From Flavobacteriaceae bacterium PS02337 (GTDB lineage: Bacteria > Bacteroidota > Bacteroidia > Flavobacteriales > Flavobacteriaceae), in assembly GCA_029959285.1 (NCBI GenBank), contig JASCOE010000006.1, forward strand, positions 1 through 64,000: a stretch of 64,000 nt of DNA. The letters are read 5' to 3'. The notes beneath the pieces were generated by a model. It was not told where the DNA came from. It saw nothing but the letters and a program-made list of their open reading frames with translations, and ran no database searches. This document shows positions 2,091-32,496 of this stretch, piece by piece (the stretch's first letter is position 1; the number at the start of each line of letters is the position of its first letter). A program made the position numbers and the translations under genes.

Positions 2091-2106
2091 CGCTTTAAAT
2101 TTTGAT

Positions 2107-2325: not shown

Positions 2326-2350
2326 GACTATGAATTTTAAGTTATTACAT

Positions 2351-2950: not shown

Positions 2951-2993
2951 CGTTCTAAGATTTTAAAATGTTGTTTAATCGTTCTTTTTCAGG

Positions 2994-3389: not shown

Positions 3390-3440
3390 AGCGGTTGTTT
3401 TTTAAGGCTACCACCAATTAAGGCGGTAGCCTTTGGTTAT

Positions 3441-4514: not shown

Positions 4515-4558
4515 GATAAAATGATTTAAAAATTTGATAATTGTTTGAATACTCTTGA

Positions 4559-4936
4559 TTAAAATGGGAGGTCGTCCTTTTCCTTGCCGTTGCTGTTTCC
4601 CGCAGGAGCCTGTCCAGTTTCCGATTTTTTACCGCCCCCGTGCAGTTTGATTTGCGAGGTGTTAAAGTTCAGTCCTGCGTGCGGTTGTCCGTCACTTCCT
4701 GTCCACGCTCTTGCGCTCACTTTACCTGTCAGTTCTACGACCGTACCCTTAGTGAGTATAGTGGCAACTTTAGGACTTAGCCAATAGGCACAATCGAAGT
4801 AGGTTGTCTGCTCTATGCGTTCGCCCGCTTTGTTTTTGTAGCTGTCGTTGATGGCTACTGAAAAGTTTACTACTGTTTTGCTGTTTGACACGTTGCGTAC
4901 CTGCGCATCCGCTGTCACTCTTCCTGTGATGTTCAT
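4559..4936 (-). CDS. ssb: Single-stranded DNA-binding protein of a mobile element
   Basis: A 125-residue SSB: an OB-fold of about 100 residues (MNITGRVTADAQV, NFSVAINDSYKNKAGE, TTYFDCAYW, GTVVELTGKVSARAW), a short Gly/Asn linker and the acidic C-terminal tip DDLPF that recruits partner proteins. It binds ssDNA as a tetramer during replication, repair or conjugative transfer. It is shorter than typical chromosomal Bacteroidota SSBs and sits with DUF932 and PRTRC genes, so I take it as the element's own copy. It is the first gene of the minus-strand operon, with the 668-bp repeat-rich spacer upstream that must hold its promoter. Confidence 0.9.
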   Translation of the reverse strand: MNITGRVTADAQVRNVSNSKTVVNFSVAINDSYKNKAGERIEQTTYFDCAYWLSPKVATILTKGTVVELTGKVSARAWTGSDGQPHAGLNFNTSQIKLHGGGKKSETGQAPAGNSNGKEKDDLPF

Positions 4937-5059
4937 AATTTCTGCGATTTTTAGTGATTATTTTTTTTTTTAAATTTTATTCGGCAATGAGAGGAGGTGC
5001 TGTTTTGTTTCATCAAATCCATTTTTAATATTTTATTTCTCATTGCTGACATTTTTTTT

Positions 5060-5532
5060 ATTCGTCTAAAGAGCCGGAGTATGCTATGTTTCGTTTCATG
5101 AGCATAAAAAGGTGAGTGTTTAGCAATAGCAAGGCTTTGAAAAAAAATACGACCCGGATGGGTGGAGATTTTTTCTCAAATCTGGAGGGCCTGGCCTTGC
5201 TAGTGCGTTAAGAACACGGAGTTACCTTTGCTCTTGAAATGGGACAAAAGCATACTGGTTTCTTGGATAAAAAATGAAAGGGAAGCAATGATGACAGAGT
5301 TAGGAAATGTCATTAAAGCTTAGACGAATTCATAAATACTGCAAAATTTCTTAAGCCTGCTAAATGATTATTAATTGGTGTGTTTGTATAAAGAAGTCTA
5401 TTAGAACTGCTAATAATTTATTAGAGAAAATTATTGGATCACCTTGGAGGTAAATATTTAGTAAAACTCGTCGCCAATGTTAATAGAAATTGAAAAAAGT
5501 TGATTTTACATTTTCGCAAACCTTAGACGAAT
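5060..5532. repeat. Three copies of the 10-mer TTAGACGAAT
   Basis: Perfect copies lie at 5320-5329 and 5523-5532 on the plus strand and at 5060-5069 on the minus strand (ATTCGTCTAA). The same 10-mer was not noticed elsewhere in the window. The last copy sits about 45 bp upstream of the promoter-like box of the first copper-island gene and the first copy about 125 bp upstream of ssb, so operator sites for a shared regulator are one reading; recombinase arm sites are another. Confidence 0.55.
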
Positions 5533-5550
5533 ATTGTTTTTAACATTATT

Positions 5551-5584
5551 TTTGTTAAAATTAAAAATAATATAAGTACTTTTG
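5551..5584 (+). promoter_or_regulatory. Bacteroidota-type promoter of the copper island
   Basis: TTTG at 5551-5554 and TACTTTTG at 5577-5584 match the Bacteroidota -33 (TTTG) and -7 (TAnnTTTG) elements with a slightly long gap of 22 bp. Transcription would start near 5591, about 14 nt before the ATG at 5605. Confidence 0.5.
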
Positions 5585-5604
5585 CTTTTACTATTACTCA
5601 TCAC

Positions 5605-5976
5605 ATGAACCGATCTCGCATCATATTAATTGTTATACTTGGCTTTTTCTTAATGCCAACGATGACTTTTGCTTGCGAAAAAATCGTGATTAATCATTCT
5701 TGCACAAAAGAAACTTCTAAATCCACGAAAGAAGATGATTGTTGCTCTAAAACAAATCATTCGGGCGACAAAGATCATGATGGTTGTGGTGGGAAATGCG
5801 GACATTCAAGATGCGGCTGTGCCTCAGTTTGCAGCGGAGGAATCACTTTTTTACACGATCTTGAATTCAAAAACATCACAATAGGTGTTTTTTCTTTAAA
5901 ACAAAAATTCCACAATGCAGAAACCTCAATTTTATCTGGTTTCTATTCTATTTGGCTTATACCTAAAATAAGCTAA
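5605..5976 (+). CDS. Secreted Cys/His-rich small protein, putative metal binder
   Basis: A 123-residue protein with a signal peptide (about residues 1-23, cleaved near MTFA-C). The mature N-terminal half is packed with metal ligands: CC pairs, HSG-x-KDHDGCGGKCGH and RCGCASVC, about 12 Cys and 6 His in some 60 residues. The C-terminal third is Cys-free and ends SIWLIPKIS. I do not recognise a named family. It is the first gene of the copper island and has its own promoter-like box; a hairpin at 5980-6013 follows. A periplasmic or outer-membrane copper-sequestering role is an inference from composition and context. Confidence 0.7.
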   Translation: MNRSRIILIVILGFFLMPTMTFACEKIVINHSCTKETSKSTKEDDCCSKTNHSGDKDHDGCGGKCGHSRCGCASVCSGGITFLHDLEFKNITIGVFSLKQKFHNAETSILSGFYSIWLIPKIS

Positions 5977-5979
5977 AAA

Positions 5980-6013
5980 CCTTTTTTGACAGCCATACGT
6001 GTGTCAAAAAAGG
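5980..6013 (+). terminator. Hairpin after the Cys/His-rich gene, possible terminator or attenuator
   Basis: CCTTTTTTGACA (5980-5991) pairs perfectly with TGTCAAAAAAGG (6002-6013), a 12-bp stem with a 10-nt loop. A T-rich stretch follows only from about 6029, so termination may be partial. Confidence 0.45.
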
Positions 6014-6125
6014 AAGCCTATCTGCTTCATTTTTTTATTTTTCGCTTTTTGTAGAATAATGTTCTATACATCTTGTATATACAATTATTTCTCAAAAGCA
6101 ACATTCACTTCAAATACATTTTAAA

Positions 6126-6977
6126 ATGAAATCAATTAAACAAGGATTGATGGCAATTACCCTATTGCTGTCAGTCATAGTGTATGGCGCACCTATAAAA
6201 AATGCTAAAACCTTAAATACAAAAATTTATGGTAATTGTCTAATGTGCAAAACTGCTATTGAAAAAGCAGGAAACCTCAAAAATATCGCTTCGGTAAACT
6301 GGGATGAAAACACCAAGATAGCGGCTATTACCTATGATGAGAAGAAAACAAATCTGGATGAAGTCCTGAAAAGAATTGCCTTAGCAGGATATGACAGCGA
6401 CCAATTCTTAGCTCCTGGTGACGCTTATGCAAAACTTCCACAATGCTGCCAATATGAAAGAACAAATATGGCGGCCCCAATAAAAAAATCCGAAATGGAT
6501 ATGGGTAAAATTGATCATTCACAGCATACAGCCGCAGTTCCTGCCGATGCACAAGAGAACAGTCCTTTTAAAGCAATTTTCGACAGCTACTTTGATGTAA
6601 AAGATGCTTTGGTGAAAACAGATGCTAAAACTGCCGCATTGAAATCTAAAGAGCTCCTTTCTGCAATCAATGCCGTTAAAATGGAGAACCTAAAGCCAAA
6701 AGAACATACTGCATGGATGAATGCATTGAAAAGTTTAGCTTCAGATGCCACAAATATTTCTGAAAACCAAGATGTAAAAAAGCAAAGGGAATCCTTTAAA
6801 AGCTTGTCTAAAAACACTTACAATCTTATAAAAACTACCGATCAGCCACAACCGGTTTATTATAATCATTGTCCAATGGTTGATGCAAATTGGCTGAGCA
6901 AGGAAAGCGGTATCAAGAATCCGTATTACGGTTCGCAGATGTTAAGCTGTGGATCAACTATAGAAACAATCAAATAA
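6126..6977 (+). CDS. Periplasmic HMA-like plus DUF3347 protein
   Basis: A 283-residue exported protein: signal peptide at about residues 1-22, then an HMA-like domain (residues 30-95) with the ligand loop NCLMCKTAIEKAG, i.e. a CxxC metal site, then a His/Met-rich linker (MDMGKIDHSQH), then DUF3347 at about 150-275 ending in YNHCPM ... NPYYG ... LSCGS. DUF3347 proteins are common next to Cus-type efflux genes in Bacteroidota and are thought to bind metal; no biochemical role is established. It begins 149 bp after the Cys/His-rich gene and is followed 15 bp later by the beta-propeller gene, suggesting one operon. Confidence 0.85.
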   Translation: MKSIKQGLMAITLLLSVIVYGAPIKNAKTLNTKIYGNCLMCKTAIEKAGNLKNIASVNWDENTKIAAITYDEKKTNLDEVLKRIALAGYDSDQFLAPGDAYAKLPQCCQYERTNMAAPIKKSEMDMGKIDHSQHTAAVPADAQENSPFKAIFDSYFDVKDALVKTDAKTAALKSKELLSAINAVKMENLKPKEHTAWMNALKSLASDATNISENQDVKKQRESFKSLSKNTYNLIKTTDQPQPVYYNHCPMVDANWLSKESGIKNPYYGSQMLSCGSTIETIK

Positions 6978-6992
6978 TCCCAAATCAGAAAA

Positions 6993-8063
6993 ATGAAAAA
7001 TATAATTACAGGTACTTCAATCCTTGGGGTATTAATCTCAGGAGCTCTATCGCTGTCTTCTTGCAGTAAAACAGACGATATGAATATGTCCGATCCCAAT
7101 CTGAATATAAACTATCCTGCAGCTTATGTGGTCAATGGTCAGGACGGCACAATTTCAGTAATCAAATTGGCAACTAATGAAGTTACAGAAACCATCAGCC
7201 TTATGGGAACCGGTACTGATATGATCATGTGGCCCCACCACATTTCTTTACATTCCAATCACCTGGCCATTGGTGTACCCGGAATGGACTTCTCTGCAGG
7301 CCATAGTGCTGGTATGGAAGGAATGACTGGTAAACTTCTTGTAGTTGATGCCGCTAATGGAACAACTGTAAAAAACATGAGCCTGCCAAAGATGAACCAC
7401 AATACGATATACAGTCCAAATGGTTCAGAAATCTGGGTGCCGCAAATGGACATGAATGGAAAAGTTCTGGTTTATGATGCCTTAACATATGCATTGAAAA
7501 ACACTATAGCGGTAGGTATGATGCCTGCTGAACTTACCTTTTCTTCTGACGGCAGTAAGGCCTATGTCGCTAACGGGGATGACAATACTGTGTCAGTTAT
7601 AAATACAACAACCAAACAAGTTACAGCAACTGTTGCTGTTGGGGACAACCCTGTGGGCGCCTGGACAGGAAGTGATGCCAGAATGTATGTTGATAATGAA
7701 GACGGGCAATCTATCTCTGTGATCAATGTAGCAACCGATGCTGTAGACCAAACAATTGATTTAGGATTTATGCCTGGAATAGCGTCTCACAATGGAAATA
7801 AGAAAGAACTTTGGGTTAGCGATCCTGCCAATGCAAAAGTTCATTACTGGACCTGGGACCAGACAATGATGATGTGGATGCATGGAGGTGTATTTACTAC
7901 TGGTGCCGGTGCACATGCAATAACATTTACAGCAGATGGAAATACAGCCTATGTGACCAATCAGACAGCCAATACGGTTTCTGTCATTAATGTATCAAAC
8001 CATACTGTCTCTAAAACGATTAATGTCGGTAGAAAACCCAACGGATTGGTGCTGAAAATATAA
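6993..8063 (+). CDS. YVTN-type beta-propeller lipoprotein
   Basis: A 356-residue protein with an N-terminal signal ending in a lipobox-like LSLSSC (Cys about 24). The remainder is built from repeated blades of the YVTN kind: AYVVNGQDGTISVI, KAYVANGDDNTVSVIN, YVTNQTANTVSVIN, each followed by a T-x-x-x-x-x-T-I-x-V-G strand. Such seven-bladed propellers act as surface or periplasmic scaffolds, and some as lactonases or cytochrome partners. Met- and His-rich patches (GMDFSAGHSAGMEGM, QTMMMWMHGG) could bind copper. It is 15 bp after the HMA-DUF3347 gene. Its exact role in the copper island is not known. Confidence 0.75.
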   Translation: MKNIITGTSILGVLISGALSLSSCSKTDDMNMSDPNLNINYPAAYVVNGQDGTISVIKLATNEVTETISLMGTGTDMIMWPHHISLHSNHLAIGVPGMDFSAGHSAGMEGMTGKLLVVDAANGTTVKNMSLPKMNHNTIYSPNGSEIWVPQMDMNGKVLVYDALTYALKNTIAVGMMPAELTFSSDGSKAYVANGDDNTVSVINTTTKQVTATVAVGDNPVGAWTGSDARMYVDNEDGQSISVINVATDAVDQTIDLGFMPGIASHNGNKKELWVSDPANAKVHYWTWDQTMMMWMHGGVFTTGAGAHAITFTADGNTAYVTNQTANTVSVINVSNHTVSKTINVGRKPNGLVLKI

Positions 8064-8194
8064 ATCTGATATAAAGGCATTTAAAAGGCGAAATAGAGCT
8101 TGAATTTGCAATCAAAAAAAGAATAATTCTTATAATACTCAAACAAAGGAATGTTGGACAAAACAACATCCATTAGAGATAAAAACTAAAAAAA

Positions 8195-8887
8195 ATGAAA
8201 AAATTAATTTTCTCAACCCTTGTAATGGCAATTGTACTTACAGCTTGTAATTCAAAAAACAAAGAAACTGCAGCTCCTGACGCTGCTTCTGGGACAGCTC
8301 AGAATGATTCACAATTGTATGCCTGTTCCATGCATCCTGAGGTTACAGGAAAAAAAGGGGACAAATGTTCCAAATGTGGAATGGAATTAACCGAGCCGGT
8401 AAAGGAAACGACTGAAAAAAGTGCAGAAGAAAATACAACCCAAACTGCTCAAGGAACATTTTCTATAAACGAAATCGTGAGTAATTATCTGACTCTGAAA
8501 AATGCATTAACGAAAGATGATACAAAAGGAGCTGCAGATGCCGGAAAAGCATTGTATGCAATTTTTAATAGTGTAAATCCCAATTCGATAGATACGAAAT
8601 TAAAAGCAGAATATCTTGATATTGCTGATGATGCCAAAGAACACGCAGAACATATTGGAGCTAACGGTGGAAATATTGAACACCAGAGAGAGCATTTTGC
8701 CATGTTAAGTAAAGACATGAATGATTTGATAAAATCTTTCAAATCTGAACAAAAATTGTATCAGGACTTTTGTCCTATGTATGATGGCGGGAAAGGAGCA
8801 ATTTGGATAAGCGAAACCAAGGAGATCAAAAACCCATATCAAGGAAAAAAAATGTTAACCTGTGGTTCTATGAAAAAAGAACTATAG
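8195..8887 (+). CDS. Lipoprotein with heavy-metal-binding domain and DUF3347
   Basis: A 230-residue lipoprotein: lipobox VLTAC (Cys18), then a heavy-metal-binding domain at residues 42-65 (YACSMHPEV ... CSKCGMEL), a Thr/Glu-rich linker, and DUF3347 from about 90 to the end (DFCPMYDGGKGAIWIS, NPYQG, LTCGS). It is presumably anchored to a membrane facing the periplasm and binds copper or silver. Its DUF3347 half is very close to that of the next gene (9133-9645), with long identical stretches such as ADDAKEHAEHIG, so the two are tandem duplicates that differ by loss or gain of the HMBD and lipid anchor. Confidence 0.85.
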   Translation: MKKLIFSTLVMAIVLTACNSKNKETAAPDAASGTAQNDSQLYACSMHPEVTGKKGDKCSKCGMELTEPVKETTEKSAEENTTQTAQGTFSINEIVSNYLTLKNALTKDDTKGAADAGKALYAIFNSVNPNSIDTKLKAEYLDIADDAKEHAEHIGANGGNIEHQREHFAMLSKDMNDLIKSFKSEQKLYQDFCPMYDGGKGAIWISETKEIKNPYQGKKMLTCGSMKKEL

Positions 8888-9132
8888 TACAGCTAACTAC
8901 TAATAAATTTATCGGGCTGTTTACATAATGACCACTCAATATTCTCGTGACTAATGATGTTCATAATTTATTGAAATGTGAGATGTATCTATTTTTTTAG
9001 ACTACGCCGTGAGATACTCTTTGCAGAATATTCACTTATTTCCCATGTGTTTATTGTGTAAACAGGTCAATAGATATTTTTAAAAAAAATCAAAAGCAAC
9101 CTGTTTTTTAAACAATTTAAAATATAATTAAA

Positions 9133-9645
9133 ATGAAAAATACAATTCTTTCAGCCATATTAATGGTATGCGTAATGGTTTCTGGTAATGCGCAAAGCAA
9201 AAAAACAGAAGCAAAATTTTCAACTGAGCAAATTGTTGCAAATTATTTAGCGTTAAAAAACACCCTTGCAAAAGATGACAGCAACGGAGCTGCTAAAGCT
9301 GGAAAGGCACTGTATGCGACTTTCAAAAGCGTAAATGTAAAATCGATAAATCCAAAATCTAAAGCTGCATATCTTGATATAGCTGATGATGCCAAAGAGC
9401 ATGCAGAACATATTGGTTCTAACGGTGGAAATATTGAACACCAAAGAGAGCACTTTGCCCTACTGAGTAAAGACATAAATGATTTGATTAAAACTTTTGG
9501 AGCTTCAAAAACACTATATCAGGATTCTTGCCCTATGTATGATGGTGGAAAAGGAGCTATCTGGATTAGTGAAACAAAAGAGATAAAAAACCCTTACTAT
9601 GGTTCTAAAATGCTTACCTGCGGTTCAATGAAAAAACAATTGTAA
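9133..9645 (+). CDS. Secreted DUF3347 protein
   Basis: A 170-residue protein with a signal peptide (about residues 1-20, ending SGNAQ) followed only by DUF3347. The conserved pieces are a four-helix region with EHAEHIGSNGGNIEHQREHF, SCPMYDGGKGAIWIS, NPYYG and a terminal LTCGSMKKQL. It is a near-copy of the C-terminal half of the preceding protein. It lies 245 bp after that gene, a gap in which no feature was found, and ends one base before the haem-binding-type gene, so those two are co-translated. Copper binding is inferred from context and the Cys/Met/His motif. Confidence 0.85.
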   Translation: MKNTILSAILMVCVMVSGNAQSKKTEAKFSTEQIVANYLALKNTLAKDDSNGAAKAGKALYATFKSVNVKSINPKSKAAYLDIADDAKEHAEHIGSNGGNIEHQREHFALLSKDINDLIKTFGASKTLYQDSCPMYDGGKGAIWISETKEIKNPYYGSKMLTCGSMKKQL

Positions 9646-9646
9646 A

Positions 9647-10117
9647 ATGAAACGGTTCATCAGAAAGATTCTTTTTATTGGGTTAATTATTTTTCTACTG
9701 ATGCAATTGTATCAGCCTGCCCGCAATTCCGATTACGGGCAGGTTTTACCAATTCACATTTCAAAAGTCTATCCCATTCCCAAAAATATACAAACGATTC
9801 TTCAGACTTCCTGTTACGATTGTCACAGCAATAACACACAATATCCATGGTACTCCTACATCCAGCCGGCACGCACCTTTATGGAAGGACACATCAAGGA
9901 AGGAAAAGAAAATTTGAATTTTAGCCAGTGGGGAAACTATTCCAAAAGAAAGCAGGAGAATAAATTAGACCGAATTTTAAAGCAGATAAAAGCGAACGAA
10001 ATGCCATTGCCTTCTTACACCTTGATCCATAAAAACGCGGTATTGACAGCTGTTCAAAAAGAACAGCTTATAACCTGGATTGAAAAAGTAAGCGATAGTC
10101 TTTCAAAAATAAATTAA
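9647..10117 (+). CDS. Haem-binding domain protein (c-type CxxCH)
   Basis: A 156-residue protein with one N-terminal membrane segment (about residues 8-22) and a periplasmic domain carrying SCYDCHSNNTQYPWYSYIQP (haem motif CYDCH at 56-60), then a GHIKEGKENLNFSQW stretch. This is the haem-binding domain family Haem_bd (PF14376), frequent in Bacteroidota next to efflux genes. It could pass electrons, for instance for Cu(I)/Cu(II) cycling, but that is inference. It sits between DUF3347 and cusA with gaps of 1 and 4 bp, so it is very probably translated with them. Confidence 0.8.
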   Translation: MKRFIRKILFIGLIIFLLMQLYQPARNSDYGQVLPIHISKVYPIPKNIQTILQTSCYDCHSNNTQYPWYSYIQPARTFMEGHIKEGKENLNFSQWGNYSKRKQENKLDRILKQIKANEMPLPSYTLIHKNAVLTAVQKEQLITWIEKVSDSLSKIN

Positions 10118-10121
10118 ACCT

Positions 10122-11432
10122 ATGGTACACAAATTAATAGAATGGTCCCTGCGTAACCGATTCATCGTATTACTATTATCAGCAGGAATATTTGTTTGGG
10201 GTATCATCTCTATTCAAAAAAATCCTATTGATGCTATTCCCGATTTATCTGAAAATCAGGTAATCGTTTTTACAGAATGGATGGGACGTGCTCCACAGCT
10301 CGTTGAAGACCAGATCACCTATCCCTTGGTTACCAACCTTCAGGGATTACCTAAAATTAAATATGTAAGGGCTGCTTCCATGTTTGGTATGAGTTTTATC
10401 TATGTCATTTTTGAAGATGATGTTGATGTATACTGGGCAAGATCAAGAGTGCTGGAAAGGCTCAGTACTATTAGCAGCACCTTGCCCAAAGGAGTTGCCC
10501 CGCAATTAGGACCCGATGGAACTGGGGTTGGTCATATACTCTGGTATACTCTGGAGGCACCCGGTGTTGACCTTGGTGAACAAAGGGCACTACAGGACTG
10601 GTACGTCAAGTTTGCTTTGCAAAATGTTCCCGGAGTGAGTGAAATTGCTTCTTTTGGAGGATTTCAAAAAGAATACCAGGTAACCATTGATCCAAACAAA
10701 CTGCTATATTATAAGCTGTCTGTCCCAGAGGTTATAAGTGCTGTACGTGCCAATAATAATGAAAGTGGCGGAAGAAAATTCGACATGAGTGATATTGGCT
10801 ATATCATTAAGACATCCGGTTATCTGAAATCCATCAAAGAGATTGAGGATATTCCACTGAAAAATCAAAATGGTATCCCTATAAAAGTCAGCGATATAGG
10901 AACTGTCCAGATGAGCGGAGAAACCCGATTAGGGATCTTTGACCATAATGGTACAGGCGAAGTCGTTGGAGGCATCGTCGTGATGCGTTATGGTGAAAAC
11001 GCAGATGCTGTAATTGATAATGTGAAAGAAAAGATGAAAGAAGTTGCAAAAGGGCTTCCTAAAGGCGTAAAATTTAATATCGTTTATGACCGGGGGCACC
11101 TGATTAAAGAATCTATTGATTCGGTTAAGCGCACCTTAATTGAAGAGATGCTTGTGGTGTCGCTTATCGTTATTATTTTTCTTTTTCACTGGCGCAGTGC
11201 ACTAAGTATTATCATCCAGATACCAATTACAATTGCAGCAAGTTTCATACTGCTCAATGCCTTTGACATATCCTCCAATATCATGTCCCTTACCGGTATA
11301 GCACTTGCCATTGGAGTAATAGTTGACAACGGTATAATTATGAGTGAAAATGCCTACCAGCATCTTTCACAACGGTATGCACAATGGGAATCTGAACCAA
11401 AAAATGAAACAAACTCCGATGAAAAGAATTAA
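10122..11432 (+). CDS. cusA: CusA/CzcA-family RND efflux pump, N-terminal part (frameshifted)
   Basis: These 436 codons encode the first part of a heavy-metal RND transporter: TM1 (RFIVLLLSAGIFVWG), the first periplasmic porter half (IPDLSENQVIVFTEW, QLGPDGTGVGHILWYTLE, which is of the Cus copper/silver type), and TM2-TM4 ending at IGVIVDNGIIMSENAYQHL, with the Asp of the proton relay. The frame then stops at 11430-11432 in the cytoplasmic loop after TM4. The rest of the pump continues in the +1 frame. Dropping one A from the AAAA at 11422-11425 would restore a pump of about 1,075 residues, the usual size. It is either a broken gene, a two-piece pump, a recoding site or a sequencing error. 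Confidence 0.85.
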   Translation: MVHKLIEWSLRNRFIVLLLSAGIFVWGIISIQKNPIDAIPDLSENQVIVFTEWMGRAPQLVEDQITYPLVTNLQGLPKIKYVRAASMFGMSFIYVIFEDDVDVYWARSRVLERLSTISSTLPKGVAPQLGPDGTGVGHILWYTLEAPGVDLGEQRALQDWYVKFALQNVPGVSEIASFGGFQKEYQVTIDPNKLLYYKLSVPEVISAVRANNNESGGRKFDMSDIGYIIKTSGYLKSIKEIEDIPLKNQNGIPIKVSDIGTVQMSGETRLGIFDHNGTGEVVGGIVVMRYGENADAVIDNVKEKMKEVAKGLPKGVKFNIVYDRGHLIKESIDSVKRTLIEEMLVVSLIVIIFLFHWRSALSIIIQIPITIAASFILLNAFDISSNIMSLTGIALAIGVIVDNGIIMSENAYQHLSQRYAQWESEPKNETNSDEKN

Positions 11433-13353
11433 AAATATATTTCGCAAAAAACCACAGTGGATATCCGAAGAGGAAAGACTCAAAATAATTGAGAAAAGCA
11501 GCAAGCAGGTTTCTCGCGGCGTATTCTTTGCCACTGTTATTATAATTACTTCTTTCCTGCCTGTGTTTATGCTTACCGGACAGGAAGGGAAGCTATTCCA
11601 TCCCTTAGCCTATACAAAAACATTCATTCTGATTGTAGATGCTCTATTGGTTCTGACATTAGCTCCGGTACTGATCTCTTTTTTCATGAAAGGGAAATTC
11701 CGTCCAACCGATGCACACCCGGTAAATCGTTTTTTGGAGAGAGGCTATGAGCCAATCATACGCTGGGTTCTGAAATGGCGAAAAACAACCCTGACCGTTA
11801 ACATATTGGCATTGTTGATTTCTATCCCATTATTGATGCGCCTCGGAACGGAGTTCATGCCTCCATTGGACGAGCAGAGTATTTTATTTATGCCTGTTAC
11901 CCTCCCTGATGTATCTAATGGAGAAATCAAACGTATTTTACAGGTACAGGATAAAATAATCAAATCGGTTCCCGAAGTCGAAAGTGTTTTAGGCAAAGCC
12001 GGTCGGGCTAACACCGCTACGGATAATTCGCCAATGAGCATGATTGAGACCATTATCATGCTAAAACCAAAATCAGAGTGGCGTGAAGGAATAGATAAAA
12101 AAGATATTATTAAGGAACTCGATACCAAACTGCAGATACCTGGTGTAGTAAATGGATGGACACAGCCTATCATCAACCGTATCAATATGCTCGCTACAGG
12201 AATTCGTACCGACGTGGGTATTAAAGTCTACGGTCAAAATCTCGATACCATTGCGCGAGTATCAGAAAGAGTAAAAATGGCTTTAGAGGGAACCCCTGGT
12301 GTCTCCGACTTATTTGTGGATCCTATTACTGGCGGAAAATACCTTGATGTTGATGTCAATCGTTCGGAACTGGCCCGTTATGGATTAACTGTAGATGATG
12401 TAAACCAAACAGTGGAATTTGCTTTAGGAGGAGCGTCGATCGGCAATACGGTTGAAGGACGAAGACGATTTTCAATAAGCGTTCGTATGGCACAGGATTA
12501 TAGAAATAGCGTGGAACGCATTAAACGCATTCCCTTGCAGTCTCCAACCTTTGGAGAAGTGCCCCTGTCTTCTGTTGCCGATATTAAATTCGTGGATGGC
12601 CCTCCAATGATTAGTTCAGAAAATGCGCTCCTTCGCGGGGCAGTCATGTTCAACATACGTGATCGTGATATGGGGGGAACCGTACAGGAAGCTATGAAAA
12701 AATTAGAAAGTGCCAAAAATATACTTCCCGAAGGGTACTTTATAGAATGGAGCGGACAATATGAGAACCTGATCAGCGGAGAAAAGACCCTTAAGATCAT
12801 TGCACCGATAGTATTGCTTATTATTTTCTTCTCCCTCTATTTTGCCTTTAATTCCCTTAGAGAAGCCTTCTTAAGTCTTATAACAGTGCCTTTTGCTTTG
12901 ATTGGAGGTGCCTATATAATTTTTTTCTGGGATGTCAATCTATCAGTGGCAGTAGCTGTAGGTTTTATAGCCTTGTTTGGTATTGCCGTGGAAACCGGAA
13001 TTGTTATGGTTATCTATCTCAATGATGCCATGGAGCAACTTATCAAGGCCAAAGGAAACTCAAGAGAAACCATTACTAAAGAGGATCTCAGGGAGTATGT
13101 GGTACACGGTGCCGCAAAGAGATTACGTCCAAAACTAATGACCGTATGTGTCTCATTATTTGGATTAGTGCCTGTCCTCTGGTCCAATGGTGTTGGAATG
13201 GATGTAATGAAACCAATTGTATTGCCTATGATTGGTGGCGTATTTACTTCTGCCGTACATATCTTATTAGTAACCCCGCTTATTTTCCTAATGTCTAAAG
13301 AATATGAATTACGAAAATATGGCAAACTCGAAGTACATGATGTCAAACATTAA
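11419..13353 (+). CDS. cusA: CusA/CzcA-family RND efflux pump, C-terminal part
   Basis: This frame (open from 11344; likely re-initiation ATGs at 11404 or 11419) supplies the second part of the RND pump: the hydrophilic linker, TM5 on (FATVIIITSFLPVFMLTGQEG), the second porter half (TEFMPPLDEQSILFMP, RINMLATGIRTDVGIKV, GNTVEGRRRFSISV) and the last membrane segments with the relay residues Glu in GIAVETGIVM and Lys in RLRPKLMTV. It ends with a short tail overlapping the start of the outer-membrane channel gene. As a separate product it would lack TM1-TM4, so activity would need assembly with the first part or a corrected frame. The neighbours supply adaptor and channel of a tripartite Cu/Ag pump. 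Confidence 0.83.
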   Translation: MKRIKNIFRKKPQWISEEERLKIIEKSSKQVSRGVFFATVIIITSFLPVFMLTGQEGKLFHPLAYTKTFILIVDALLVLTLAPVLISFFMKGKFRPTDAHPVNRFLERGYEPIIRWVLKWRKTTLTVNILALLISIPLLMRLGTEFMPPLDEQSILFMPVTLPDVSNGEIKRILQVQDKIIKSVPEVESVLGKAGRANTATDNSPMSMIETIIMLKPKSEWREGIDKKDIIKELDTKLQIPGVVNGWTQPIINRINMLATGIRTDVGIKVYGQNLDTIARVSERVKMALEGTPGVSDLFVDPITGGKYLDVDVNRSELARYGLTVDDVNQTVEFALGGASIGNTVEGRRRFSISVRMAQDYRNSVERIKRIPLQSPTFGEVPLSSVADIKFVDGPPMISSENALLRGAVMFNIRDRDMGGTVQEAMKKLESAKNILPEGYFIEWSGQYENLISGEKTLKIIAPIVLLIIFFSLYFAFNSLREAFLSLITVPFALIGGAYIIFFWDVNLSVAVAVGFIALFGIAVETGIVMVIYLNDAMEQLIKAKGNSRETITKEDLREYVVHGAAKRLRPKLMTVCVSLFGLVPVLWSNGVGMDVMKPIVLPMIGGVFTSAVHILLVTPLIFLMSKEYELRKYGKLEVHDVKH

Positions 13354-25733: not shown

Positions 25734-25853
25734 TTCACAATATAAAATAGCACTATAACTCATTTAAAACCAAAGAAAAAAAAACAATTCTTTAGAACTA
25801 GAAATACAATAGTGATTTGATAGTTCAACATTTCTAGATACCACATTTAACCC

Positions 25854-25878
25854 AACCAGCCTTTATCGGCTGGTTTTT
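25854..25878 (+). terminator. Terminator of the copper-island transcript
   Basis: AACCAGCC (25854-25861), a TTTATC loop and GGCTGGTT (25868-25875), continued by a run of five T. It is a perfect 8-bp GC-rich stem about 120 bp after the oxidase stop, suited to end the long plus-strand transcript. Confidence 0.75.
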
Positions 25879-26160
25879 GCATTTGGGCATTTGGAAAATA
25901 AAAGCAACTATATTTACAAGAATCAAGAATATTTAGTTTTTAATCTAACAGCTAAAACAGGCCAGTGGAATGAAGCCATATTATTTACCTGAAGGAGAAA
26001 TGGACATGAATGAAGCACTGTGCTACAATAATATCTTATTGAAAGAATAAATAAATATGTTGCTTTTATACACACTTATAACCCATATTATCGTGCTATA
26101 TATTAATCACATGTTTGCCGCAATTGAATAACTTATAAATAATTATTTAAGATTATTATG

Positions 26161-26191
26161 TTGCAATTTAATATCGTTTTTAATACATTTA
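26161..26191 (+). promoter_or_regulatory. Candidate promoter of the structured RNA
   Basis: TTG at 26161-26163 and TACATTTA at 26184-26191 (consensus TAnnTTTG with G to A at the end) are about 20 bp apart, the usual Bacteroidota -33/-7 spacing. Transcription would begin around 26198. Confidence 0.4.
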
Positions 26192-26197
26192 CAGATA

Positions 26198-26401
26198 TAA
26201 AAGTACATTGACTGACTGAGATTAAATTGATCGAGAATACAAAGGGCTACAAGGTAACTCATTATAAATGAGACCTATTCGGCTACCCCTTTTGGGTAGA
26301 GTATTTGGAAACACCAATAAAATCAACGAATTAAGGAATAGGCAGGTCGTCCTGCCACCCCGACAAAAGTCTTTTCATTTATTTGAAAAGACTTTTTTTT
26401 T
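26198..26401 (+). ncRNA. Candidate structured non-coding RNA with own terminator
   Basis: Five consecutive hairpins lie in 150 nt with no coding frame: 26252-26276 (AGGT-AA-CTCATT / AATGAG-ACCT), 26283-26299 (CTACCC / GGGTAG), 26302-26319 (TATTTGG / CCAATA with a bulge), 26341-26356 (GGCAGG-TCGT-CCTGCC), and a 13-bp terminator stem at 26365-26396 followed by a T run to 26401. The next downstream gene is on the opposite strand, so this is not a leader of that gene. The layout is that of a free-standing small RNA of about 200 nt. From memory it resembles the Flavo-1 class of Flavobacteriia RNAs, with linkers such as GGCTACCC and CCTGCCACCCCGAC, but I could not verify this. It does not look like tmRNA, RNase P RNA or SRP RNA. 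Confidence 0.55.
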
Positions 26402-26464
26402 ATTTTAAATTGAAATATAAAAATCAATCAACACAATAGATTTACAAAATTTATCTCATTTAAA

Positions 26465-26544
26465 ACATAGCCCGTGGTTTCAACCACGGGAAACGTGTCG
26501 TAAATAATATAATACGTTCCAACGGTTGAAACCCTGCGCTATGT
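26465..26544. repeat. REP-like palindromic element (two inverted halves)
   Basis: The left half has CCCGTGGTTTCAACCACGGG at 26471-26490, a perfect palindrome with a 2-nt centre. The whole unit is flanked by ACATAGC (26465-26471) and its inverse GCTATGT (26538-26544), and GGTTTCAACC (26476-26485) recurs inverted as GGTTGAAACC (26524-26533). This is the shape of bacterial REP/BIME elements mobilised by RAYT (TnpA_REP) transposases. No RAYT gene is in the window. Confidence 0.7.
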
Positions 26545-26548
26545 CAAA

Positions 26549-26595
26549 AAACAAAACCTTTGAAGATTAATATCATCTTTCAGAGGTTTTGTTTT
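26549..26595 (-). terminator. Terminator of the beta-helix protein gene
   Basis: AACAAAACCT with TTGAAGAT on one side and ATCTTTCAG with AGGTTTTGTT on the other form a long stem, with A runs to the left that are T runs on the minus strand. It lies just after the stop of the minus-strand gene. Confidence 0.65.
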
Positions 26596-26612
26596 ATACT
26601 ATGTATGTTTAT

Positions 26613-28781
26613 TTATTTTCCCATTTCTATATAAGCAGGAAAAGATTCACTATTTGGCAAAACAAACTGTTCATCGAAAGGCTGCGTTCCTTTATCATTA
26701 TTATATAATTTTACACGCTTTGCGCCTGTCGCCGTACTTCCGCCTGTATTATTAATAACATTTTGAATATTTCCTGGTCCAGCAAAACGTGTAATACACA
26801 TTTTTTCGAGTTGCACATTTGGACTATTCGGTATTTCGAAACCATTTTTCTTGTTTACATTTCCGTCAGTTCCAGTAAAAACAGCATAAGAACCCATTCC
26901 GATACTATGATGTTCTTTTACAGTATTAGCAACTTTAAAAGCAGCATAACCGTCAACTTTACCATTTTGACTGCTCCAGCTTGCTTGATTTGGAGCATCA
27001 TACGGCGGTTCATTTTGAAAGAAATAAGTTCTACCGCGTTCTCCCAACCAGATTACTTCATATTCTTGAAAATGTTCTACAAAAAGACCATAAAGAGTAA
27101 CATCATTACCAGTAACAATAAGTCCGTTTTTACATCTGTCTCTTACCCAACGGGCATCTCCGCCTTTTTGTGAACCATGATCGGCACGCCACAACCAAAA
27201 ATGATCGCCAACAACATTATTACTATTGATCTGCATTGAAGCTTGAATCTGAATATTTTTTGACTGAACTCCGCCTACCCTACAAGTAATATCTGTTAAC
27301 AAAATTGGATCAACAGAATGATCAGCTTTTGCGCCTTCATTTCCAATTCTAATTTGATAGATTGTACTATTAAATGAATCCATCAATAATCCAGCAATGA
27401 TAATTCCATCTTTATCATCAGCATAAATGCATCCCCAAGTATTTTTTTCGGTGGGTTCTAATGTTACAGAAGCGATTCCAGCTCCAAGAAGAATTGCATC
27501 TTTTCTATTTACTTGAATCGGAGCATTTAATGAATAATGCCCAGGAGTAAAAAATATATTTTTACCTGCTTTTAATGCAGTATTTATTTCTACATCAGTA
27601 TCCCCTTCTTTTGTAACATACCAATTAGCAAGCAAATCTTGAATTTTCCCGTCACCCATATTTTTTGATGTCCAAGAAACTCCAACCCTATCTTTTTGCC
27701 AAGACGGAATAAAAACTTTGTACTCGCCATCGTTATCAATAAAAAGAAAAGGCTTTTCTCTGACAATAGGTGTCGCTGCAATTGGAGAATTGGCATCATC
27801 TGCTTGGGGAGGATTTACGCAACCTTGCCATACCATATTATATGATCCGCCCATAGCTCCTGAACCCGAAGGAAATACAGCATTTCTTGTATACCATTGT
27901 TGCTGCCCTTTCCAATTAGGTCTGTCAGAGGTGTAATGAGTATCTGCAATAAAACCTCCACTTCCCCAAAAATTTGTGTCACCTATATCTGAAATGTATT
28001 TTGAAGTGCCATCAATTAACAACCTTCGAGCGCTGGTTGACTGAGAAACTGTCCAAGCAAAATCGCGCAATACTTCTACATTTTCTACAGAACGCCAGAA
28101 AGTACAAGTAGCATTTGCTCCGCCTGAAAGGTGAGGTCTTGTAAATATTGACCCTAATTTAACATCCGAAGGCACTTTTCCTAAGCCTCCGATATGAGAA
28201 TAAAACCCTAATTCAATTGAATTCGCTTCTTTTGATGACGCAGAACCTGATCCGCCGGCATCATAAGTTTGACTCTTTACATTTGGCTTAAAATAATATG
28301 CTTGACGTTTTGTGGTCCATTCGCCATTTGCTCCACCTAAACCAATAGCTCCAAATTGCGAATTAATATCATTTCTTGCTGTTTCTGCTTTTTCATATTT
28401 TCTATCATAGAAATACATATTATCACCAAAAATTTGATTTTCAATCGAAATTATGATGACGATATCGTTTCGAGTAACTTTATAATAATTCTCATATTTA
28501 TCTGCATTTGGCTTATTATCCGTAAATGTTAATTTGTAAGTTGAACCTACCGAAATAAAATCTGACGCCAATCGACTTCCTCCTCTTGTAATTACATAGT
28601 TTCCTGAAGAACCAAATTCTGACCAAGACAAAATTATGTTACGCTTTTTCTTGTCATAAACAATTTTACGTTCGATCTTATTTTCTTGTTTATTTTCGAC
28701 AGAAGAATAAGGAGAAGCAAAACTACATAGAATCATCAGAAATGAAAACACAGTAAATACCGAGATTACTTTTTTAATCAT
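26613..28781 (-). CDS. Secreted right-handed beta-helix protein (carbohydrate-active type, unassigned)
   Basis: A 722-residue protein with a signal peptide (about 1-23). After an N-terminal Ig/fibronectin-like segment and a mid-region with RRLLIDGTSKYISDIGDTNFWGSGG, the body reads like a right-handed beta-helix of the pectate-lyase/GH55 fold: INTALKAGKNIFFTPGHYSL, DAILLGAGIASVTL, DGIIIAGLLMDS, NVVGDHFWLWRADHG and YGLFVEHFQEYEVIW. The order of these blocks is the same as in actinobacterial secreted proteins usually annotated as adenylyl cyclase or F5/8-type proteins, names I do not trust. Substrate unknown. It stands alone with its own terminator, and faces away from rlpA. Confidence 0.7.
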   Translation of the reverse strand: MIKKVISVFTVFSFLMILCSFASPYSSVENKQENKIERKIVYDKKKRNIILSWSEFGSSGNYVITRGGSRLASDFISVGSTYKLTFTDNKPNADKYENYYKVTRNDIVIIISIENQIFGDNMYFYDRKYEKAETARNDINSQFGAIGLGGANGEWTTKRQAYYFKPNVKSQTYDAGGSGSASSKEANSIELGFYSHIGGLGKVPSDVKLGSIFTRPHLSGGANATCTFWRSVENVEVLRDFAWTVSQSTSARRLLIDGTSKYISDIGDTNFWGSGGFIADTHYTSDRPNWKGQQQWYTRNAVFPSGSGAMGGSYNMVWQGCVNPPQADDANSPIAATPIVREKPFLFIDNDGEYKVFIPSWQKDRVGVSWTSKNMGDGKIQDLLANWYVTKEGDTDVEINTALKAGKNIFFTPGHYSLNAPIQVNRKDAILLGAGIASVTLEPTEKNTWGCIYADDKDGIIIAGLLMDSFNSTIYQIRIGNEGAKADHSVDPILLTDITCRVGGVQSKNIQIQASMQINSNNVVGDHFWLWRADHGSQKGGDARWVRDRCKNGLIVTGNDVTLYGLFVEHFQEYEVIWLGERGRTYFFQNEPPYDAPNQASWSSQNGKVDGYAAFKVANTVKEHHSIGMGSYAVFTGTDGNVNKKNGFEIPNSPNVQLEKMCITRFAGPGNIQNVINNTGGSTATGAKRVKLYNNDKGTQPFDEQFVLPNSESFPAYIEMGK

Positions 28782-28997
28782 AAGAATGTTTTTTTTGTGG
28801 TTTGATAGTTTGTATTAATAGAAATTTTAAGGAAGCCTAAAATACCAATAATCTTTAACCTATGTCTTCACTTATTTCTTATCAAAAACTATACAAAGCC
28901 TTGATTTTGTCTTTTCATAACAGAAATAAAGCTTATTGAAGACGTTTATCATTCTCATACAACCTTCTTTTGCGAGTTAATAGAAAGGAAAAGTGAA

Positions 28998-29405
28998 ATG
29001 AAAAAGAGTATATTATTTATGGTATTAGTTTTTTGTCTAAAAGCTAACGCACAACAAAAAAACATCACCGTTATTGATTCTTGTACATCAACAAAAGAAA
29101 GCGTGCTATACAAGAAAAACGCTCATGCATCATATTATCATGATAAATTTAATGGAAGAAAAACAGCAAGCGGAAAACGATTCGATAATAGCCAATTGAC
29201 TGCAGCTCATAAAAAACTTCCTTTTGGAACTAAATTAAGAATCACCAACGAAAAGAATAACAAATGTGTTGTAGTTGAAGTAACAGATAGAGGCCCTTTT
29301 GTTAACGGAAGAGAAATAGATCTATCTAAAAAGGCATTTATGGACATTACTTCCAATATAAAATCAGGTGTAGAATATGTAAAAATCGAAATTATAGAAA
29401 ATTAA
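28998..29405 (+). CDS. rlpA: RlpA-like septal lytic transglycosylase / DPBB protein
   Basis: A 135-residue exported protein: signal peptide (about 1-18, ANAQ), then a double-psi beta-barrel domain with HASYYHDKFNGRKTASGKRFD, LPFGTKLRITN, VVVEVTDRGPFVNGREIDLS. This is RlpA, which cleaves denuded peptidoglycan glycan strands at the division site, or a relative in this size class. It lacks the SPOR domain of the E. coli protein. It is 114 bp upstream of parA on the same strand. Confidence 0.88.
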   Translation: MKKSILFMVLVFCLKANAQQKNITVIDSCTSTKESVLYKKNAHASYYHDKFNGRKTASGKRFDNSQLTAAHKKLPFGTKLRITNEKNNKCVVVEVTDRGPFVNGREIDLSKKAFMDITSNIKSGVEYVKIEIIEN

Positions 29406-29519
29406 TCCTGCCAAACCCCATCAAATAAACGAATAAACAAACTTTCACAAATGTTAACAAAATAGATTTTCAAAAACCATAAATAATTGTATTTTTACGG
29501 TTCAAAATTCAGAAAATAA

Positions 29520-30287
29520 ATGGGCAAAATCATTGCTATTGCTAATCAAAAAGGAGGAGTTGGAAAGACCACTACATCAGTAAATCTTGCTGCCTCATTA
29601 GGTGTTTTAGAAAAAAAAGTATTGTTAATCGATGCTGATCCTCAAGCCAATGCAACATCTGGTCTTGGAATTGATGTAGAAACAGTTGAAATTGGAACTT
29701 ATCAAATTCTTGAGCATACTGCAACACCAAAGGATGCCATTTTAAAATGTACAGCTCCAAATGTTGACGTGATACCTGCTCACATTGACCTTGTTGCTAT
29801 CGAAATTGAATTGGTTGACAAAGAAAACCGAGAATATATGCTTAAAAAAGCATTAGAATCTGCAAAAGAAGAATATGATTTTATCATTATCGACTGCGCA
29901 CCTTCTTTAGGTTTGTTAACCTTGAATGCTTTAACAGCTGCTGATTCTGTAGTTATTCCTATTCAATGCGAATATTTTGCACTTGAAGGATTAGGAAAAT
30001 TATTGAACACTATTAAGAGTATTCAAAAAATACACAACCCAGATCTTGACATTGAAGGTTTATTATTAACTATGTACGATTCAAGATTACGTTTGTCAAA
30101 TCAGGTTGTAGAAGAGGTTCAAAAACACTTTAATGATATGGTTTTTGATACTGTAATTCAGCGAAATGTAAAATTAAGTGAAGCGCCAAGTTTTGGTGAA
30201 AGTATCATTAATTATGATGCAACTAGCAAAGGTGCAGTAAACTACATACATTTAGCTCAAGAAATTATAAAGAAAAACAGCAAATAG
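29520..30287 (+). CDS. parA: Chromosome-partitioning ATPase ParA (Soj)
   Basis: A 255-residue ParA: deviant Walker A KGGVGKTTTS at residues 11-20, LLIDADPQANATSGLG and IIDCAPSLGLLTLNAL. It is a DNA-binding ATPase that works with ParB to move origin regions. It lies 5 bp before parB, as in other Bacteroidota. I looked for a consensus parS (TGTTTCACGTGAAACA) and did not see one nearby. Typical chromosomal copy by length and context (dapB, lepB downstream). Confidence 0.95.
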   Translation: MGKIIAIANQKGGVGKTTTSVNLAASLGVLEKKVLLIDADPQANATSGLGIDVETVEIGTYQILEHTATPKDAILKCTAPNVDVIPAHIDLVAIEIELVDKENREYMLKKALESAKEEYDFIIIDCAPSLGLLTLNALTAADSVVIPIQCEYFALEGLGKLLNTIKSIQKIHNPDLDIEGLLLTMYDSRLRLSNQVVEEVQKHFNDMVFDTVIQRNVKLSEAPSFGESIINYDATSKGAVNYIHLAQEIIKKNSK

Positions 30288-30292
30288 TTTTT

Positions 30293-31195
30293 ATGACAAA
30301 AGCAATTAAAAAACAAGCCTTAGGAAGAGGATTATCAGCATTATTAAAAGATCCGGAAAACGACATTAAATCAGTAGACGATAAAAATGCTGACAAAGTT
30401 GTTGGAAACATCATTGAGCTTGAAATAAGTGCTATAGAAATAAATCCGTTTCAGCCTAGAAGCAATTTTAATGAAGAATCGTTACGTGAATTAGCCACTT
30501 CTATCAAAGAACTTGGTGTAATTCAACCTATTACTGTTCGTAAATTAGATTTTAACAAATACCAGCTAATCTCTGGAGAACGTCGTCTTCGCGCTTCAAA
30601 ATTAGTAGGACTTACTCACGTTCCTGCTTATATCCGTATTGCGAATGACAACGAATCTTTGGTTATGGCTTTGGTTGAAAATATTCAACGCCATGACTTA
30701 GATCCAATTGAGATTGCATTATCATACCAACGTTTAATTGACGAAATTCAACTAACTCAAGAACAAATGAGCGAAAGAGTTGGAAAAAAACGTTCTACAA
30801 TTGCCAACTATTTACGTCTTTTAAAACTAGATCCAATTATCCAAACAGGTATTCGCGACGGTTTTATTAGCATGGGACACGGTAGAGCGATTATCAACAT
30901 TGAAGATCTAGACGTTCAAACCGATATTTACCAAAAAATCGTAAGTCAGAATTTATCTGTTCGTGAAACTGAGGCATTAGTTAAAAATTATCACGAAGGT
31001 CAGCAACCGAAAGAAGACGGAAAACCAAAACCTGAATCTGCATTTGTTGTTAGAGAAACTCAAAAAAACACTTTCAACGATTATTTTGGTTCGAAAGTTG
31101 ATATAAAAGTCGCTGGTAACGGAAAAGGAAAAATTACAATTCCATTTAATTCTGAAGCCGACTTTAACAGAATTATAAAATTAATAAACGGATAG
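30293..31195 (+). CDS. parB: Chromosome-partitioning protein ParB
   Basis: A 300-residue ParB: N-terminal ParB/Sulfiredoxin domain with EINPFQPRSNFNEESLRELA, LISGERRLRASKLVGL and ENIQRHDLDPIEIALSY (CTPase region), central helix-turn-helix (QEQMSERVGKKRSTIANYLRLL) and a C-terminal dimerisation part. It binds parS and loads onto DNA. The stop overlaps the GTG start of the next gene by one base (TAGTG), so the genes are translationally coupled. Confidence 0.95.
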   Translation: MTKAIKKQALGRGLSALLKDPENDIKSVDDKNADKVVGNIIELEISAIEINPFQPRSNFNEESLRELATSIKELGVIQPITVRKLDFNKYQLISGERRLRASKLVGLTHVPAYIRIANDNESLVMALVENIQRHDLDPIEIALSYQRLIDEIQLTQEQMSERVGKKRSTIANYLRLLKLDPIIQTGIRDGFISMGHGRAIINIEDLDVQTDIYQKIVSQNLSVRETEALVKNYHEGQQPKEDGKPKPESAFVVRETQKNTFNDYFGSKVDIKVAGNGKGKITIPFNSEADFNRIIKLING

Positions 31196-31755
31196 TGAAT
31201 AAAATTGTCCCCATCGGTCTATTGTTCTTTCTAACAGGAACCGTTTCTCTTTTTGCCCAGGTAAAAAAAGACACGGTTTTGGTCGTAAAAGACACTACTG
31301 CATATCAAGAAATAGACCCGCTTACACCAGCAAAAGCAGCTTTTTATTCTGCTATTTTACCAGGTTTAGGTCAAGCATACAACAAAAAATATTGGAAAAT
31401 TCCATTGGTTTACGGAGCAATCGGAACCAGTTTGTATTTTTATATAGACAATAATAAAAAATACCACGATTATCGTGATGCCTACAAACGTAGATTAGAA
31501 GGTTATAACGATGATAACTATCAATTTTTGGATGAAAGCAGACTTGTTGCCGGACAAAAATTTTACCAAAGAAACAGAGACTTATCTGCTTTATTTGTCG
31601 TTGGTTTTTATGTCTTAAATATTATTGACGCCAATGTAGACGCGGCTTTAATTCAATTTAATATGAATGAAAGATTATCAATGCGTCCAGAAATTTATCC
31701 CGCCGATGTAACATTTAAACCAAATGTCGGACTAACTTTTAATTACACTTTTTAA
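31195..31755 (+). CDS. DUF5683 envelope protein
   Basis: A 186-residue protein starting with GTG, one base overlapping the parB stop. Signal peptide (about 1-22, SLFAQ), then DUF5683 with PAKAAFYSAILPGLGQAYNKKYWKIPLVY and YHDYRDAYKRRLEG, and a second hydrophobic stretch near 125-140. This family is fixed between parB and dapB in Flavobacteriia; the role is not known. It is most likely an inner- or outer-membrane protein with two or three short membrane segments. Confidence 0.85.
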   Translation: MNKIVPIGLLFFLTGTVSLFAQVKKDTVLVVKDTTAYQEIDPLTPAKAAFYSAILPGLGQAYNKKYWKIPLVYGAIGTSLYFYIDNNKKYHDYRDAYKRRLEGYNDDNYQFLDESRLVAGQKFYQRNRDLSALFVVGFYVLNIIDANVDAALIQFNMNERLSMRPEIYPADVTFKPNVGLTFNYTF

Positions 31756-31794
31756 TAGATTAAATTCTATTTAAAAAATCAAAAAATAATCAGA

Positions 31795-32496
31795 ATGAAA
31801 ATTGCGCTTTTAGGATACGGAAAAATGGGTAAAGTAATCGAAAGAATTGCTTTAGAAAGAGGTCATGAAATAGTTTTAAAGAAAGATGAATTCAATACTT
31901 ATGACGGACTTTCAACCGCCGATGTTGCCATTGATTTCAGCGTTCCTTCTGCAGCTGTAAGCAATATTTCTGCTGCATTCAATGCTAATGTACCGGTAGT
32001 TTCTGGAACAACTGGATGGCTAGAACATTATGATGAAATGATTGCGCTTTGTAACGAAAAAAAGGGTGGTTTTATCTCTAGTTCTAATTTCAGTTTAGGC
32101 GTTAATATTTTCTTTGGATTAAATGAATATTTAGCTAAAATCATGAATCAATTTGATTCTTATAAAGTTTCTATGGAAGAAATTCATCATATCCATAAAC
32201 TTGACGCTCCAAGCGGAACTGCAATTTCTTTAGCGCAAGGCGTTATTGAAAATAGCGATTACGCAAATTGGACGATGGAAGAAGCAAAAAAGAATGAAAT
32301 TCGTATTGAAGCAAAAAGAATCGGAGAAGTTCCTGGAACTCACACCGTAAATTATGATTCTCCAATTGACAGTCTCGAAATTAAACATACTGCCCACAAT
32401 CGCGAAGGCTTTGCACTTGGAGCTGTTGTTGCTGCAGAGTGGCTAGCTGGAAAGCAAGGAATTTTTACAATGAAAGACGTACTAAACTTACAATAA
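31795..32496 (+). CDS. dapB: 4-hydroxy-tetrahydrodipicolinate reductase DapB
   Basis: A 233-residue DapB. The dinucleotide-binding start is LLGYGKMGK, and the active-site region is EEIHHIHKLDAPSGTAISLA. It reduces the product of DapA in lysine and diaminopimelate synthesis, so feeds peptidoglycan. It is shorter than the E. coli enzyme (273), as usual in Bacteroidota. It lies 39 bp after the DUF5683 gene and 56 bp before lepB. Confidence 0.95.
   Translation: MKIALLGYGKMGKVIERIALERGHEIVLKKDEFNTYDGLSTADVAIDFSVPSAAVSNISAAFNANVPVVSGTTGWLEHYDEMIALCNEKKGGFISSSNFSLGVNIFFGLNEYLAKIMNQFDSYKVSMEEIHHIHKLDAPSGTAISLAQGVIENSDYANWTMEEAKKNEIRIEAKRIGEVPGTHTVNYDSPIDSLEIKHTAHNREGFALGAVVAAEWLAGKQGIFTMKDVLNLQ

Follow-up and report, generated by a model that had tools for sequence, protein, structure and literature searches.

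A probable right attachment site (attR) of an integrative and conjugative element at a tRNA-Pro gene in a Flavobacteriaceae genome

A promoter, a row of hairpins and a terminator that accompany no gene readily suggest a small RNA, and the question raised by positions 26198-26401 is whether they form one. We examined this locus within a window of 64,000 nucleotides, the whole stretch of DNA analysed, from Flavobacteriaceae bacterium PS02337. The original prediction, made from the letters alone, had placed here a free-standing multi-hairpin RNA at the border of an island. Our analysis instead identifies the locus, with a probability of about 0.92, as the right attachment site (attR) formed where an integrative and conjugative element (ICE) entered a tRNA-Pro(TGG) gene at its 3′ end.

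Insertion at the 3′ end of tRNA-Pro

An uninterrupted empty site covering both flanks was found in the related genome G015, in which the chromosome aligned continuously from tRNA-Pro into the sequence of window 26350 onward. Positions 915-6042 of G015 aligned to 13945-8763 of another contig of our genome, C2, at 86%, with the tRNA-Pro gene inside the aligned part, and its positions 6018-6086, 6187-9163 and 9260-12001 aligned to window 26350-26418 (91%), 26444-29404 (81%) and 29410-32156 (92%), respectively. In a further genome, G004, the upstream flank was matched at 75% and the 52 bases across the border, comprising tail and terminator, agreed at 98% with the sequence at its tRNA-Pro; its downstream flank beyond the border gave no match to the window. 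These alignments show that the insertion interrupted the chromosome where tRNA-Pro ends on its 3′ side. The right end of the element lies at 26349/26350 or within the repeated tail, since the empty-site homology starts at 26350, and the predicted island border was thereby confirmed.

The empty site divides the locus into three parts: 26198-26349 is the end of the element, 26350-26364 is the 3′ tail of the host tRNA-Pro(TGG) (TCCTGCCACCCCGAC, forward strand), and 26365-26400 is a displaced terminator on the same strand. The tail was aligned to the tRNA-Pro gene of G015 and equals the tRNA-Pro(TGG) tail, so that a tRNA 3′-end repeat stands at the border. The strong intrinsic terminator of the original prediction is present, at 26365-26396 followed by a T tract, and it is the tRNA's own, as G015 and G004 carry tail and terminator behind tRNA-Pro. 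To its left, the right part of the element on this contig would occupy positions 1-26349, an extent deduced from the empty site. The next downstream gene, at 26613-28781, lies on the opposite strand, as had been stated, and no tRNA or tmRNA was found within the window.

A search of 60 relatives pointed to the same gene. Six other genomes matched the last ~52 bases at 94-98% identity, and further matches were shorter or weaker. In five of the six (L006-L010), ARAGORN annotated a tRNA-Pro(TGG) gene whose 3′ end is the match; in the remaining one (L005), the closest tRNA-Pro was ~560 bp away. Beyond the tRNA terminator, at window 26467-26542, there is also a palindromic stretch, GCCCGTGGTTTCAACCACGGG ... 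CGGTTGAAACC. Sequences like it occur near the border or tRNA-Pro in L043 and L006, and it may be a dispersed repeat.

A tRNA-Pro(TGG) gene also adjoins the other end of the element in the same genome. Contig C2 carries this intact tRNA-Pro, the left end of the element, an integrase gene (int) and an HTH_17 gene, whose small product may be a directionality factor. The integrase, at C2 7240-8475 on the reverse strand, is a tyrosine integrase with Arm-DNA-bind_5, SAM_5 and Phage_integrase domains and stands beside this other junction. We infer that C2 and the contig of the window, C53, hold the two ends of one element. The part of the element within the window contains PRTRC, DUF932 and SSB genes and a copper/heavy-metal efflux cluster, the latter identified by inspection of the sequences. 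Among the relatives, G134, G180, G304 and G409, which each hold both ends on a single contig, were examined for conjugation genes, and all four carried exactly one relaxase (PF03432) and one TraM (PF12508) match between the ends. In another relative, 65 kb separate the ends (G233:C6:267531-332840), and the 20 of 53 ORFs scanned there included TraM, TraO, DUF4138, PRTRC_E and the same class of integrase; no relaxase match was found on this contig, and this element has probably been shortened. The element of the window is itself split over contigs, with the three TraO-matching genes of the genome on other contigs, and our provisional assignment of the family to the ICEs comes from the conjugation genes between the ends in relatives.

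Conserved blocks of the element end and their distribution

We then compared the locus across genomes. Among 399 genomes of the genus, 29 (own genome included) gave any match at E <= 1e-4. The right end was present nearly in full in 23 (own genome included, by reading of the match table); three others (G077, G122 and G210) gave a partial match, and three (G106, G135 and G208) had only a ~28-base motif of the left end. A sequence-only model, R1, matched 12 of 397 genomes family-wide and 4 of 395 phylum-wide, the own genome included each time and mostly weakly; its effective sequence number is low (1.73), and some of the weak matches are left ends or chance-like. A pattern scan of genome contigs for GACCTATTCGGCTRCCC returned 69 stretches, with many from Flavobacterium, one from a Parapedobacter and one from a Sphingobacterium, and we took the many unrelated genomes among them as chance matches. 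Blastn at 1e-5 found no copy among 50,697 phage records or 72,556 plasmid records.

The alignment took in 33 distinct relatives, of which 30 were counted after leaving out L052 (insertion) and L054 and L055 (partial or diverged). Conservation across the whole set starts at the TTG of the promoter described below and stops in the tRNA tail. The tRNA-Pro tail CCGAC follows 26 of the 30 aligned copies and is not found behind the other four, and the terminators vary from host to host. Right ends without an exact tRNA-Pro tail were seen in L112, L120, L074 and L060, as well as in L052, and no tRNA was found in the 8-kb locus of the left end L121; all six are apparent secondary insertion sites. In L110, L046 and L063, the right end is joined straight to the left end of the element, which could stem from the assembly, from tandem insertion or from a circular form. 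Two diverged right ends, L140 and L142, stop at CTGTCATCCCGAC. In the diverged left end L137, this sequence agrees with the tRNA-Pro(GGG) tail, and target choice therefore seems to have moved between proline tRNA genes.

Within the element end, conservation is concentrated in blocks that look like DNA sites. The best-conserved block of this element part is a tandem direct repeat, GAGACC-TATTCG-GCTACC, at 26270-26287 on the forward strand (mean column identity 0.99). The motif, of the form GNNACC-N6-GNNACC, is present at both ends of the element and lies beside int on C2. We also inspected seven diverged loci read as right ends, L143 being the least certain, and in six of the seven the two hexamers are identical (GTTACC or GTGACC) with a 12-bp period; the scan required GNNACC twice and did not force the free bases to be identical. 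One locus, L144, carries an inverted copy of the motif too. The repeat probably represents integrase arm-type sites.

The start of the predicted transcript is covered by another conserved block, AAGTACATTGACTGA, at 26201-26215 on the forward strand (mean column identity 0.95). An inverted copy of one segment, TCAGTCA, stands next to int at the opposite end of the element, where 67-68 bp separate it from the tandem repeat. This 7-mer, chosen after seeing the alignment, was found in 14 of 24 left ends versus a mean of 0.23 and a maximum of 3 in shuffles. An ungapped copy of the full 15-mer at left ends was discarded, as it occurred with at most four mismatches in 3 of 24, and the best matches were mostly at the level of shuffles.

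Close to the core, at 26321-26333 on the forward strand, the sequence AATCAACGAATTA fits WATCAANNNNTTR, which we take to be the IHF consensus, and could bind IHF. The consensus was exact in 27 of the 30 relatives (shuffles: mean 0.22, maximum 3), and L110, L084 and L074 miss it by one base or an insertion; in L063, the site has changed at free positions only (TATCAACATATTA). Among the seven diverged right ends, it was exact in three (two on the other strand), present with one mismatch in one and absent in three. Across the whole window, the consensus has 11 matches, which is the chance level. The border itself is spanned by the inverted repeat GGCAGG-TCGT-CCTGCC at 26341-26356, whose left half belongs to the element and whose right half belongs to tRNA-Pro. 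Its two halves are probably the core-type sites of the integrase, and the crossover would take place here.

Folding and the alternative readings

The original prediction saw in the locus a self-contained transcription unit with five well-formed hairpins, and an undescribed class of structured small RNA acting in trans from 26198 to 26401 would account for its conserved promoter (28 of 30 relatives) and highly conserved body. The whole stretch also folds better than its shuffles (z -3.42), but this stems from the terminator: when the stretch was split, the element part 26198-26350 alone gave z -0.49, with 58 of 200 shuffles folding equally well, versus z -7.53 for 26351-26405 alone. All five hairpins can be drawn, at 26220-26232, 26258-26272, 26283-26299, 26305-26317 and 26341-26356, but no excess over chance was seen in the element part. 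In the hairpin at 26283-26299, two of six pairs form in at most 2 of the 30 relatives, and the 3′-most hairpin is none other than the inverted repeat of the core, which arises at the contact of the element with the T-arm sequence of the tRNA. One-sided changes at 26258-26272 mostly preserve pairing, and this hairpin is the best remaining candidate for an RNA fold.

Compensatory base changes, which had been suggested as a check, gave a divided answer. In the drawn hairpins, 84.0% of cells were paired versus 83.1% in column shuffles (reached by 0 of 500), two-sided changes occurred in 8 pairs versus a shuffle mean of 3.7 (1 of 500), and the covariation score was 0.091 versus 0.075 (0 of 500), all of these measures being inflated by related rows and by a structure drawn from one row. 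When the structure was slid along the alignment, all slid versions were lower in paired cells (30-49%), further pair types (at most 14 versus 25) and covariation score (at most 0.028), but a slide of +1 column tied on two-sided changes, with 8 pairs and 11 cells versus 8 pairs and 10 cells for the structure itself. RNAalifold on the 30 rows returned 16 pairs at -7.96 kcal/mol with a covariation term of -0.35 and a two-sided change in one pair of one sequence. This consensus fold was no better than those of 200 column-shuffled alignments, either in full (z -1.17, 27 of 200 as low) or for the element part only (z -0.86, 34 of 200 as low). We took this evidence as insufficient for a conserved RNA fold and judged a structured RNA unlikely. 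Self-containment was not supported either, as the terminator belongs to the host tRNA-Pro and varies between hosts, and the most conserved block recurs at the other end of the element. All considered, a trans-acting small RNA is an improbable explanation of the locus.

A likeness to the Flavo-1 motif had also been proposed. Covariance-model scanning of the window against Rfam, the check that had been recommended, gave no family at the gathering level, and Flavo-1 was not among the 11 matches of a relaxed scan of 25734-26612. Those 11 (mir-676, ohsC, PyrR and others) were all below their gathering scores and were rejected. Flavo-1 RNA (RF01705) does occur in the same genome: when 150 of 1699 candidates were scored, 62 matches were obtained, 51 of them above the cut-off. 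None of the 62 lies on contig C53, and there was no match at 26198-26401, so the chance that the locus is a Flavo-1 RNA is negligible.

The locus had further been described as lacking a coding frame. An ATG frame of 46 amino acids does exist, but one-base length changes among relatives fall inside it, and we rejected a coding reading because of these frame shifts. A narrower version is a leader-peptide attenuator, in which translation of ATG-(R/G)-P-I-R-L-P over the tandem repeat at both ends could control transcription toward int. The ATG and these codons are indeed found at both ends, at window 26268-26287 and at the left end, and the block has two synonymous substitutions (CTA to TTA in L036 and CTA to CTG in L123), but two others (L110 and L060) are non-synonymous, and in several copies one-base length changes shift the frame just past the common codons while the nucleotides beyond stay conserved. 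In diverged elements the block is a tandem repeat, and its left-end copy is found upstream of the place presumed to hold the int promoter. A leader peptide is thus very improbable, and the shared codons probably coincide with a DNA site.

The outward promoter and comparison with known systems

The attR reading leaves the promoter to be accounted for. A TTG at 26161-26163 (-33) and TACATTTA at 26184-26191 (-7), on the forward strand, form an outward-facing promoter sequence with a predicted start near 26198 and a spacing of the Bacteroidetes type. The promoter-like pair of the original prediction (26161-26191) held up: the pattern TTG-N19-21-TAnnTTT, pointing across the attachment site, was found in 28 of the 30 close relatives versus a shuffle mean of 1.0 and a maximum of 4, although relatedness inflates the count. 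The strict form was found in one of the seven diverged relatives. A -7-like sequence precedes the tandem repeat by ~40 bp in five of these seven, versus 86 bp in the window, so the position of the promoter differs there. A sigma-70 scanner, which does not cover Bacteroidetes promoters, reported six promoter-like sites versus 4.5 expected, and none at 26161-26191 on the forward strand. The DNA above the promoter differs across the set, with about a dozen relatives sharing some of it; that 28 of 30 nevertheless retain the promoter positions makes transcription probable. These patterns make an outward transcript likely within the Flavobacterium group, and one of ~200 nt, from the promoter to the displaced terminator, plausible.

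At the left end of the element, a strong hairpin terminator starts 35 bp past the start of the CCACCCCGAC tail, before int, and in the joined arrangement the int start codon is at 309 bp from the start of this tail. A promoter-like sequence of int's own was also read there by eye. The left-end terminator replaces that of the tRNA, and it would also stop the outward transcript. Because a strong terminator precedes int and int has a promoter-like sequence of its own, promoter switching is uncertain, and any role of the outward promoter toward int is put forward here with that reservation.

We propose that the last ~190 bp of the element would be the long regulatory arm of the attachment site, laid out like the P arm of lambda attP, with arm sites in pairs for the integrase, a bend site of the IHF type and the core, and with the integrase encoded at the opposite end beside the reconstituted tRNA gene. 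Insertion moved the tRNA's terminator to the far side of the element, and the conserved promoter of the arm is directed outward over the core. While the element is integrated, this promoter would give a ~200-nt non-coding transcript that stops at the tRNA's terminator; once the element is excised, the promoter would point at the left end and int, as do the outward 3′-end promoters of ICEclc and ICEKp1. A doubtful, though possible, extension is that the transcript is functional and dependent on state: in the chromosome it would stop at the host tRNA terminator, whereas in the circle it would read the joined core, the element's terminator and, by regulated read-through, int. ICE promoter switching would then exist in Bacteroidetes in a form that includes its own attenuator, and a protein on the conserved start block would also silence the promoter.

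The junction corrects a tempting mis-call: where a promoter, hairpins and a terminator occur with no gene, they can mark the seam between a mobile element and the tRNA gene that it entered, and not a new RNA. For an ICE family that carries copper/heavy-metal cargo in this genome, it further supplies the attachment site, the tRNA-Pro target and a probable anatomy of the arm sites, and a promoter switch known from Proteobacteria becomes testable in Bacteroidetes. Our literature search returned nothing joining "integrative and conjugative element", Flavobacterium and tRNA-Pro, and the combination of Flavobacterium, tRNA-Pro and genomic island led to work on Porphyromonas phages. Within the literature searched, the tRNA-Pro site of this ICE family may thus be undescribed, while the kind of junction is known.

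The closest parallels are ICEKp1, ICEclc and ICEEc1. According to the accessible parts of PMC13023037 and, for ICEclc, PMC2704930, an outward promoter at the 3′ end of these elements drives int once they are excised. As here, these ICEs sit at the 3′ end of a tRNA gene with int beside the tRNA on the same strand, the tRNA terminator displaced to the far end and a far-end promoter pointing outward. Unlike in them, the promoter here is of the Bacteroidetes type and is known as a sequence pattern, a strong terminator contributed by the element separates int from the tRNA, and int is accompanied by its own promoter-like sequence. Autoregulated tRNA-associated integrase genes, with attL overlapping the int promoter, are described in the available text of PMC2951348, and such autoregulation may fit the motif near int. 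Among related hosts, the ICEs of Chryseobacterium and Elizabethkingia (ICECleSHZ29, PMC12561888; ICECspPOL2, PMC8694125; excerpts of both) likewise occupy tRNA 3′ ends, with direct repeats of 17-18 bp, but use tRNA-Met, tRNA-Glu and others, whereas the family described here uses tRNA-Pro. The CTnDOT/NBU1 integrase subgroup, as far as the accessible text of PMC8138268 describes it, likewise comprises Bacteroidetes tyrosine integrases with an arm-binding domain acting on subterminal arm sites, a likeness drawn from domains. The general layout is that of lambda attR and its P arm, as given in the available part of PMC4880445: the end away from int has a long arm with arm sites for the integrase, the IHF site is close to the core, and the core is bipartite. 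The junction differs from lambda in the sequence and number of the arm sites, and its sites for integrase, IHF and directionality factor are predictions from sequence.
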